From SAR324 cluster bacterium (GTDB lineage Bacteria; SAR324; NAC60-12): 64,000 nt of DNA. Both the position numbers and the translations under genes were made by a program. Every line of letters begins with the position of its first letter. The first letter of the stretch is position 1. The notes below the pieces were generated by a model. That model made no database searches. It was not told where the DNA came from and saw only the letters and a program-made list of their open reading frames with translations. The stretch lies in contig JADGAT010000002.1 of NCBI GenBank assembly GCA_015231885.1, forward strand, positions 1 through 64,000, given 5' to 3'. Below, piece after piece: positions 30,051 to 33,017 of the stretch.

Positions 30051-32027
30051 ATGAAATCCAACGATTCAAACCATCATAAAGCCACATTTCTAGCACGAAT
30101 GCAATACGGCTTCGATAATTTCATGGCCAAAGGAGGGTTGTCGGTCTTTCTGGCATTGCTCGTTATGTTTTTTTGCACATTTGCCCTGATGTTTGGACTT
30201 CGCTGGGTTGCCAGTTTTGTCTTACCTGATGAAACCATCGCACAAATCACTGACCAGATGTGGCGGGTGTTTCTTCAGATTTCAGATGCGGGTGCCATTG
30301 CCGATGATGCCAATGCCAATTATGTGAACAAAATCATTGGAATTGTTACTATTCTTCTTGGCCTCGTTTTCTTTTCCAGTTTGGTGGCCTTCATCACCAG
30401 CGTCTTCGAAGAAAAAATCACACAGCTTCGCAAGGGAAAAAGCCCTGTGATAGAAGAAGGTCATACGTTGATTCTTGGCTTTGGCAACCGGGTTTTGGAA
30501 ATCATCCGAGAGTTGATCATTGCCAATGAATCTGAAAAAGATGTGGCGATTGTCGTCTTATCTGAAAAAGATAAAGAGGAGATGGACGATTTTTTCAATG
30601 ACAACCTGGACGAACTGCATACAACACGAATCGTAACACGCAGCGGGAACACCTCCAATTTACAGTCTCTACGGAAAATGGGAATCCGCCAATGCAAATC
30701 CATCATTATTCTCAATTCAGCATCTCCTGCCGATTCTTATCGAGTAAAGTATATTGGAGACGCCCGTGTTTTGAAAACCATCATGGCGGTTGGTTCGGTA
30801 ACCGGCTCGACCGGAATGCCTCCTGTTGTGCTTGAGTTGTTTTTTTCCAGAAACAGGAAACTTGCAGAGAATGCAGTACCTGGCCAAATTACAGCCCTGG
30901 ATGCAAATTATCTCCTGGCTAAAATGCTGGTGCAAACTTCCCGTAACCAAGGATTGGCTTTTGTCTATTCCCAGCTGGTCGGATTTGAAGGCGATGAAAT
31001 TTACATCTTTCAGCCCAAAGGAGATGACTGGTGTCAGCATACTTTTGCTGAGCTACAGTGGCATTTCAAGAAAAGTGTGCTGCTTGGATTTCGTAAAGGA
31101 CGGCAGATCTTTCTCAATCCCCAGCCTGATTATAAGCCTTCGGAAGAAGATGAAATGATCGTATTGGCAGAGGATGATTCCGCTATCACCTATTACAAAA
31201 AACCTGTAATCCAACCGGCAAAGCATAAGTATGGACGAGGGCATCTGAAAAATAAACCAGAACGGCAGATGATTATCGGATGGAGTGATAAAACTCCGCT
31301 GCTGGTTGATGAATATGCCCAATATGTAGTCAGAGGATCCACCATTGATGTGGTTGTGACTAATGTCACCAAGCCAATGAACGATTTGCTGGAAATGGCA
31401 AAAAAGAAATATCCGAATTTGACCATCCGCTTGATCAAGGCAAATATCCACAATCCTGCTGTACTCAAGCGCCTGTCTCCTCAAAAATACAACAACGTCA
31501 TCATTCTTGCTGAAAATTCAGACAATGAAGAGGAAGTCGATGCGGAAACCATTGCGAAGCTTCTGGAGCTGCGCCATTACTTCCGAAGCTTTGAAAGAGC
31601 CACCGGACAGACGCCGGAGGCGCAACTGATCACAGAGGTGATGGATTCTCAAAATGCAGAGCTGATTTTCAATACGGGAGTCAAAGATTTTCTGATTCCC
31701 AATCAGTTCATTTCAAAGATATTTGCACAAATTTCTGAAGAACCTGATGTCAAACTGATTTATGAAGATTTGTTTTCAGAAGACGGAAGTGAACTGTACC
31801 TCAAACCCATCACTCTGTATTTTCAGGAATTTCCTCTAACCATCACATTTGCCGATTGTATGTTAGCCGCACAAAACCGTTCAGAAGTCTGTATTGGAGT
31901 GAGGCTAGATTCAGAAAAACAATATGCCTCTGAAGCTTATGGCATTCATCTCATACCTGAAAAAGACACCGTCTTTGAGTTCAATGAATATGATGTTCTC
32001 ATTGTATTGGCCGAAGACGACACTTGA
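30051..32027 (+). CDS. CASTOR/POLLUX-like ion channel
   Basis: This 658-residue protein has two transmembrane segments (about 28-60 and 98-122) flanking a pore loop (WRVFLQISDAGA). The large cytoplasmic part contains RCK-like nucleotide-binding folds (LILGFGNRVLEIIREL, then a second module near MIIGWSDKTPLLVDE). This matches the CASTOR/POLLUX/DMI1 family, which in plants are nuclear-envelope cation channels involved in calcium oscillation; bacterial members are widespread but uncharacterised. It is separated by 15 bases from a voltage-gated channel gene on the same strand. The ion is unknown; potassium or calcium is plausible. Confidence 0.82.
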   Translation: MKSNDSNHHKATFLARMQYGFDNFMAKGGLSVFLALLVMFFCTFALMFGLRWVASFVLPDETIAQITDQMWRVFLQISDAGAIADDANANYVNKIIGIVTILLGLVFFSSLVAFITSVFEEKITQLRKGKSPVIEEGHTLILGFGNRVLEIIRELIIANESEKDVAIVVLSEKDKEEMDDFFNDNLDELHTTRIVTRSGNTSNLQSLRKMGIRQCKSIIILNSASPADSYRVKYIGDARVLKTIMAVGSVTGSTGMPPVVLELFFSRNRKLAENAVPGQITALDANYLLAKMLVQTSRNQGLAFVYSQLVGFEGDEIYIFQPKGDDWCQHTFAELQWHFKKSVLLGFRKGRQIFLNPQPDYKPSEEDEMIVLAEDDSAITYYKKPVIQPAKHKYGRGHLKNKPERQMIIGWSDKTPLLVDEYAQYVVRGSTIDVVVTNVTKPMNDLLEMAKKKYPNLTIRLIKANIHNPAVLKRLSPQKYNNVIILAENSDNEEEVDAETIAKLLELRHYFRSFERATGQTPEAQLITEVMDSQNAELIFNTGVKDFLIPNQFISKIFAQISEEPDVKLIYEDLFSEDGSELYLKPITLYFQEFPLTITFADCMLAAQNRSEVCIGVRLDSEKQYASEAYGIHLIPEKDTVFEFNEYDVLIVLAEDDT

Positions 32028-32042
32028 GAGATTGATCGGACC

Positions 32043-33017
32043 ATGCCTCGAAAAAAAACCAAGATTGACTCTCTGAAACATTTTGTGAATGGTGACTTCT
32101 TTGGTTACTTCATATTGCTGGTCATCATCATCAATTCTGTCTTAATTGGGATAGAAACTTATCATACAGATCAGTGGATTGTTATCGTCCAGACCACTTG
32201 CCTCTATATTTTTGTTGCAGAACTGCTTCTCAAATATCTTACCAAAGACTCCAATCGCGCTTTTTTTACAAGCGGCTGGAATATCTTTGATATCATCATC
32301 GTAGCGTCGGCTTTTGTTCCTGCTGTTTCCAGTGTTTCCACCATTTTGAGAATTTTGAGAGTATTCCGGGTTTTCCGGATGATTCGAGCTGTCCCGGAAT
32401 TGAAACTGATGGTTTCTGTATTAGTACGCTCCTTCAGTTCCCTGGGGTACGTGGCCCTTCTGCTTGGAATTTTCTTCTATATTTATGCCATTATTGGAGT
32501 AGAACTGTTCGGGAAGGATTTTCAAGAATTTGCGACATTGAAAGAAGCTTCATTTTCTCTTTTTACGTCACTAACCCTGGAAGGATGGGCAGACCTCCGA
32601 CATGCGGCAGTCGCCAAATATGGCTTTTGGATGCCAACGCTCTATCATGTATCCTGGGTGATCATCAGTGCTTTTTTGATGTTCAACCTTGTAGTGGGTG
32701 CCATCATCAACAATTACCAAGTCGTTGACGATAAGGAAAAATCGGTACGCGAGTTACCCAATGATTTTTCTGCAGAAGAACTTCTGCAGATTCGAAACCT
32801 GGTCACCGAACTGGATCGTTTGCTCAACCGGAGAGGAACTCCTCCGGTTCATGTGCGCAATTATCTTTCTTCCCAAATGGGTTTTCCTGAACCCACTCAT
32901 GACCACACATCGGTTTGCCCTCATTGTGGGCAAACCTATCATATCCGAAACAAAATGGCGGGCAAGCAAGCCACCTGCCGGAAATGCAAGATGAAATTCA
33001 CCCTGGATCCTGGTTAG
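32043..33017 (+). CDS. prokaryotic voltage-gated cation channel with Ca-type filter and zinc ribbon
   Basis: This 324-residue channel has a full six-helix voltage-gated unit. The S4 sensor carries five arginines every third residue (R103, R106, R109, R112, R115). The pore filter is TLEGWAD (residues 178-184). Bacterial sodium channels have TLESW-type filters; a glycine at this place followed by a distal aspartate matches, as I recall, the native prokaryotic calcium channel CavMr. After S6 and a helical neck, the C-terminus forms a zinc ribbon with C292, C295, C312 and C315, which such channels normally lack. It is co-transcribed with the CASTOR/POLLUX-like gene. Ion selectivity is inference. 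Confidence 0.85.
   Translation: MPRKKTKIDSLKHFVNGDFFGYFILLVIIINSVLIGIETYHTDQWIVIVQTTCLYIFVAELLLKYLTKDSNRAFFTSGWNIFDIIIVASAFVPAVSSVSTILRILRVFRVFRMIRAVPELKLMVSVLVRSFSSLGYVALLLGIFFYIYAIIGVELFGKDFQEFATLKEASFSLFTSLTLEGWADLRHAAVAKYGFWMPTLYHVSWVIISAFLMFNLVVGAIINNYQVVDDKEKSVRELPNDFSAEELLQIRNLVTELDRLLNRRGTPPVHVRNYLSSQMGFPEPTHDHTSVCPHCGQTYHIRNKMAGKQATCRKCKMKFTLDPG

Follow-up and report, generated by a model that had tools for sequence, protein, structure and literature searches.

Gene content of the locus and architecture of the channel

The window, a stretch of 64,000 nucleotides of a SAR324 cluster bacterium contig (JADGAT010000002.1), carries a gene for a single-domain voltage-gated channel, which is directly preceded on the same strand by a gene of the CASTOR/POLLUX/DMI1 type. 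The coordinates of both genes and of their features are listed in Table 1.

Table 1. Features of the voltage-gated channel gene and of its CASTOR-like neighbour
Feature	Position	Strand	Evidence
CASTOR/POLLUX/DMI1-type channel gene, 658 aa, tandem RCK region, 15 bp upstream of the channel gene	30051..32027	+	Castor_Poll_mid; PDB CASTOR, DMI1
Predicted pore filter of the CASTOR-like protein, SDAGAIA, residues 78-84 (plant: AD(S/A)GNHA)	30282..30302	+	placed by eye; PMC6697748
Intergenic gap, 15 bp; both genes in one frame, with one TGA and five codons between them	32028..32042	+	
Voltage-gated channel gene, 324 aa, 6 TM, single domain	32043..33017	+	ORF with ATG; Pfam Ion_trans; AlphaFold/Foldseek; eight-member clade (100/100)
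S4 helix, residues 98-116 (R103, R106, R109, R112, R115)	32334..32390	+	alignment, AlphaFold
P1 pore helix, residues 166-177	32538..32573	+	AlphaFold secondary structure
Selectivity filter TLEGWAD, residues 178-184 (E180, high-field site; G181, position 4; A183, position 6; D184, position 7)	32574..32594	+	alignments; published CavMr filter
P2 helix, residues 185-193, clade-specific R186, no cysteine-bearing L6 insertion	32595..32621	+	alignment, AlphaFold
S6 helix and cytoplasmic extension, residues 196-236, starting near clade motif TLYHVSW	32628..32750	+	alignment, AlphaFold
C-terminal helix (residues 244-263), where BacNavs have their coiled coil	32772..32831	+	AlphaFold; alignment to NaChBac/NavAb tails
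Predicted C-terminal zinc ribbon, residues 288-320 (C292, C295, C312, C315)	32904..33002	+	weak below-cutoff Pfam Zn_ribbon_4/ADK_lid matches; four predicted strands; similar ribbons on L014, L011

The channel matched the Ion_trans domain (PF00520) over residues 19-231 with an E-value of 2.2e-45. Among the PDB matches listed, the best of all were T-type calcium channels, and the nearest single-domain sequence was NaChBac (E=1e-40). The AlphaFold model (mean pLDDT 87.6, and ~97 around the filter) shows S1 to S6 with P1 and P2 and, towards the C-terminus, a short helix and a small ribbon of four strands, and it matched NavAb and CavAb chains in Foldseek with a TMt of up to 0.86 and an rmsd of ~2.2 Å. 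The six-helix bacterial Nav plan proposed in an earlier sequence-only reading of this DNA was thus confirmed, as were its five regularly spaced S4 arginines, which occupy exactly every third residue. R103 to R112 align with S4 arginines in NaChBac and NavAb, which have no counterpart of R115. The single Ion_trans domain, the six helices, the TxExW P loop and the regular S4 arginines that characterize the BacNav-like superfamily were all found, and the channel is probably voltage-gated and homotetrameric.

The C-terminal part of the protein carries the pattern C292xxC295...C312xxC315, for which Pfam gave a weak zinc-ribbon match at residues 291-320, below cutoff. No such ribbon was present in the sequences of the other members of the clade described below. 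Similar C-terminal ribbons are found on unrelated two-TM membrane proteins from two genomes of the same family (L014:910-1608 and L011:1495-2217), so that the ribbon looks like a locally shuffled module, which suggests a mobile module within this bacterial family. Docking or metal/redox sensing would be our guess for its role.

The upstream protein matched Castor_Poll_mid (1.4e-20, Pfam), as well as CASTOR (6.6e-46) and DMI1 (2.5e-43) in the PDB. The acidic filter residue of plant CASTOR, D265, is matched by D79 in the SDAG motif, as placed by eye. The side-chain ligands of the Ca(II) and Ca(III) sites (E493, S345, D553 and D554) are kept, and D442/D444 of the Ca(I) site are replaced by Phe/Arg. 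In plants, CASTOR forms a channel that selects for Ca and is regulated by it (PMC6697748), and the upstream protein is probably also a Ca-regulated Ca channel. The genome contains two further full-length CASTOR-like genes, G000:C65:1855-3792 and G000:C186:79509-81467, with 48-49% identity, indicating that the family is expanded in this genome.

Placement and origin of the TLEGWAD filter

T178, E180 and W182 align on the TxExW of NaChBac, NavAb and 31 relatives, and G181 falls at the serine position. TLEGWAD is thus placed exactly on the NaChBac and NavAb filters and is a homologous, structurally placed filter rather than a chance 7-mer, with the glycine inside it at position 4, as the sequence-only reading had it. 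The channel is not a canonical BacNav, since its filter is TLEGWAD in place of TLESW and it lies outside both the NaChBac and the NavAb clades. Its filter resembles the AnclNav type, TLE(D/G)W(T/V)D (Shimomura et al. 2020, PMC7041947). It also has the glycine at position 4 that is typical of CavMr, but the valine that CavMr has at position 6, reported as needed with this glycine, is an alanine (A183) here.

A maximum-likelihood tree was built from 71 channels with the filter masked out. The sequences of CavMr and NavPp lie outside this sample: the scan of contigs for relatives gave 80 loci without any Meiothermus or Plesiocystis record, neither channel was among the PDB matches listed, and the comparison with both rests on their published filters. 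In this tree the window channel falls into a clade of eight rows with a support of 100/100, which sits apart from the main TLEDWTD group and from the NaChBac/NavAb clades. The clade comprises two Planctomycetota, three Verrucomicrobiota, one Campylobacterota MAG, one genome of the window genome's own family and the window channel itself, the phylum of rows from phylum searches being that of the centre genome. According to a five-member alignment, its members share R115 in S4, R186 in P2 and VSW at S6, mostly as YHVSW. One of the Verrucomicrobiota members (L197) has one in-frame TAA in its genome-search match, yet an open frame of 286 aa that includes the whole pore was recovered.

The filters of the other seven members are TGEDWTD (three times), TGDDWTD, TGDDWSD, TGDDWTQ and TGETWPE, and the window channel differs from them at positions 2, 4 and 6, of which 4 and 6 are also the two that set CavMr apart from NavPp. 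Since its kin have TG[ED]DWTD-like filters, Gly4 and Ala6 are probably derived, and all three positions appear to have changed within the window channel's own lineage. Such a departure at three positions from the clade consensus, together with the failure to find the channel in the congener, might also be expected if the channel were degenerate or no longer functional and its filter had drifted. This is very improbable, however, as the 324-codon frame is intact, the clade-invariant residues of the voltage-sensing domain and the pore are retained, the altered filter is of a known functional type, and G+C and GC3 are like those of the neighbouring genes.

Gly4 occurs in 11 sampled rows, and the tree requires nine or more changes at this site. 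The simplest reading is a repeated independent gain of this glycine, the direction of change being inferred. Common inheritance with the glycine of CavMr is disfavoured, because the clade relatives lack it; a calcium selectivity of the window channel would therefore be predicted from convergence and not from descent. In ~4 of 7 independent pairs Gly4 went together with an aliphatic side chain at position 6, and in none was the relation reversed, a suggestive trend that falls short of significance (p=0.125).

Several other channels of the sample deserve mention. L125, from Planctomycetota, is a single-domain channel with the exact CavMr filter, TLEGWVD, and is another candidate native Cav. The further Gly4 filters are TLEGWID (L113), TLEGWVE (L119), TLEGWAE (L058), TLEGWPD (L033), TLEGWSG (L052), TVEGWPD (L124), TGEGWSE (L155), TLEGWSE (L164) and TMEGWQD (L211). 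The loci L003-L010, from the same family as the window genome, encode AnclNav-type channels with the filter TFEDWTD and an N-terminal extension of ~250-300 aa, which is acidic, helical-looking and possibly TerB-like. No relative of the channel was found on viral contigs, and plasmids gave just distant matches, mostly annotated as 'ion transporter', with less than 40% identity. PADLOC found no defence family.

Association of the channel with the CASTOR-like gene

No terminator-like site and no promoter-like site on the + strand was found in the gap between the two genes. Read-through of the single TGA between them, in the region 32025-32045 of the window, would join the CASTOR-like protein to the channel, in the order opposite to that of the fusion described next.

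The sister of the window channel in the tree (support 100/96), a row on a long branch, is a 775-aa fusion protein encoded in a Planctomycetota MAG (L017:5908-8232, contig JAJDCR010000029.1), in which a BacNav-type voltage sensor and pore are directly followed by a CASTOR-like tandem RCK region. Its channel part is 41% identical to the window channel and has the filter TGETWPE. Its RCK region matched the window CASTOR-like protein in blastp with E=8e-23 over ~525 alignment columns, gave a Castor_Poll_mid match below the cut-off and keeps the equivalents of E493 and S345. Such a fusion was found in one of six genomes of the same order, two others having RCK-only matches, and a literature search turned up no similar channel-RCK fusion.

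The fusion in the sister channel and the adjacency in the window suggest a functional link between the channel and the CASTOR-like gene. The two may instead be chance neighbours, with the channel acting alone, a reading that falls only a little short of even odds. The adjacency was seen in the window genome only: the congener (G001) has a CASTOR-like gene with 83% identity among other neighbours, and no channel was found there, so the pair is not obligatory. Likewise, no CASTOR-like gene lies beside the channels of three clade members (L002, L015 and L195), and the fusion was found once. The short same-strand gap, in which no terminator-like site was found, and the fusion in the sister, despite its long branch, speak against coincidence. 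A conserved operon of the two genes was sought and not found in relatives.

Predicted ion selectivity and comparison with known systems

The sequence-only reading had stated that CavMr has a glycine at the same place and a distal aspartate, and that the glycine determines calcium selectivity. The published CavMr filter, 183-TLEGWVD-189, with a PCa/PNa of >200, bears out both the position of the glycine and its role, as PCa/PNa falls to ~8 in the G4D mutant and to ~12 in G4S (PMC7041947). The distal aspartate is indeed present at position 7 in both channels, but it is not a determinant, since CavMr D7M remains highly Ca-selective (PMC7041947). In the same study, V6T reduced the selectivity of CavMr and let K+ and Cs+ permeate, and NavPp (TLEDWTD), which is Na-permeable and Ca-blocked and whose filter differs from that of the Ca-selective CavMr at positions 4 and 6, became divalent-selective upon D4G mutation (PMC7041947). 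A 2023 survey of one-domain channels also found that glycine at filter position 4 goes with Ca selectivity (PMC10120453). In NavAb, however, S178G (TLEGWSM) left the channel non-Ca-selective, with a PCa/PNa of <0.01, and M181A mutants turned nonselective (PMC12919392). The glycine of TLEGW is therefore informative but insufficient, and the scaffold matters for Ca selectivity.

Several points make a Ca preference of the window channel plausible: TLEGWAD is the CavMr filter except at position 6, the G4S and G4D exchanges lower PCa/PNa in CavMr, NavPp gains divalent selectivity with D4G, and the survey associates this glycine with Ca selectivity. The filter changes of this lineage at positions 2, 4 and 6, the CASTOR-like neighbour and the sister fusion also count in favour of the proposal. 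Points against it are the result for NavAb S178G, as the scaffold of the window channel is a distant one, the alanine at position 6, where V6T lowered the selectivity of CavMr, and the absence of the disulfide-bearing L6 loop of CavMr (PMC10120453). Alternatively, as in NavPp or EukCat, the pore might discriminate poorly among cations or let Na+ pass while being blocked by Ca2+; the glycine would then widen the filter, and the scaffold would not confer Ca selectivity. The NavAb mutants, the passage of K+ and Cs+ through CavMr V6T, and the Na-permeable, Ca-blocked NavPp among the AnclNav-type relatives that carry Asp4 would all agree with this. We consider it less likely, given that E, G and D at positions 3, 4 and 7 are common to CavMr and the window channel, and that the NavPp D4G mutant gained its selectivity on an AnclNav scaffold with Asp7. 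On balance, we estimate the probability that the window channel prefers Ca at about 0.6.

The proposed Ca-preferring channel would belong to the BacNav superfamily, assemble as a homotetramer and conduct cations when activated by depolarisation. Four copies of E180 would form the high-field ring, glycine 181 would give a wide filter entrance, and the uncharged A183 would stand in place of threonine. Upon depolarisation, the S4 arginines would open the pore and Ca2+ would enter. The zinc ribbons, four per tetramer, would lengthen the short cytoplasmic helix and might contact a partner protein or act as sensors of metal or redox conditions. The channel is probably made together with the upstream CASTOR-like protein, with which it would form a two-part Ca entry system, and its CavMr-like filter and its position directly behind a CASTOR relative make it a good candidate for bacterial calcium entry. 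The full version of this proposal, namely a two-channel Ca system with an independent CavMr/Cav3-type filter, in which the channel is co-made with and gated by a CASTOR-type Ca sensor and a sister lineage has both parts in one polypeptide, is speculative and rather improbable as a whole.

As judged from sequence comparison, the window channel represents a side lineage of the BacNav superfamily; its CavMr-type filter is apparently convergent, it carries an additional zinc ribbon, and it is linked to a CASTOR-type gene. The side clade with its derived Gly4/Ala6, the zinc ribbon, and the CASTOR-like neighbour with the sister fusion are new beyond the sequence-only reading. In 2026, CavMr was still described as the sole prokaryotic Cav identified (PMC12919392). 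If the window channel were a second, it would combine a distant scaffold with an independently gained glycine and would test whether Gly4, together with a residue other than threonine at position 6, generally makes one-domain channels Ca-selective, as has been proposed for animal Cavs in their domains I and III. If true, the linkage or fusion to a CASTOR-type gating ring would mean that voltage and intracellular Ca2+ share a target in bacteria.

CavMr of Meiothermus ruber, like the window channel, is a single-domain, six-helix channel with Gly4 and Asp7, but it has valine instead of alanine at position 6, and the window channel lacks the L6 cysteines, has the ribbon and belongs to a separate side clade, its glycine looking separately gained (in a tree without CavMr, which was compared by its published filter). 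The AnclNavs, NavPp and relatives (TLEDWTD), are the closest general filter type, sharing Asp7 and likewise departing from the canonical TLESW; they have D4/T6 where the window channel has G4/A6, and its clade is distinct, with YHVSW at S6 and R186 in P2. NaChBac and NavAb (35% and 31% identity, respectively) share the fold, the S4 arginines and the filter frame, but have the filters TLESWAS and TLESWSM and a separate, well-supported clade. The domain I filter of the T-type channels Cav3.1/3.2, TLEGWVD, is that of CavMr, whereas Cav3 channels are four-domain and eukaryotic, unlike the window channel. Finally, the CASTOR-like neighbour resembles LjCASTOR/DMI1 in its tandem RCK region, filter aspartate and Ca(II)/Ca(III) side chains, and differs from them in the Ca(I) site and in its filter, SDAGAIA.
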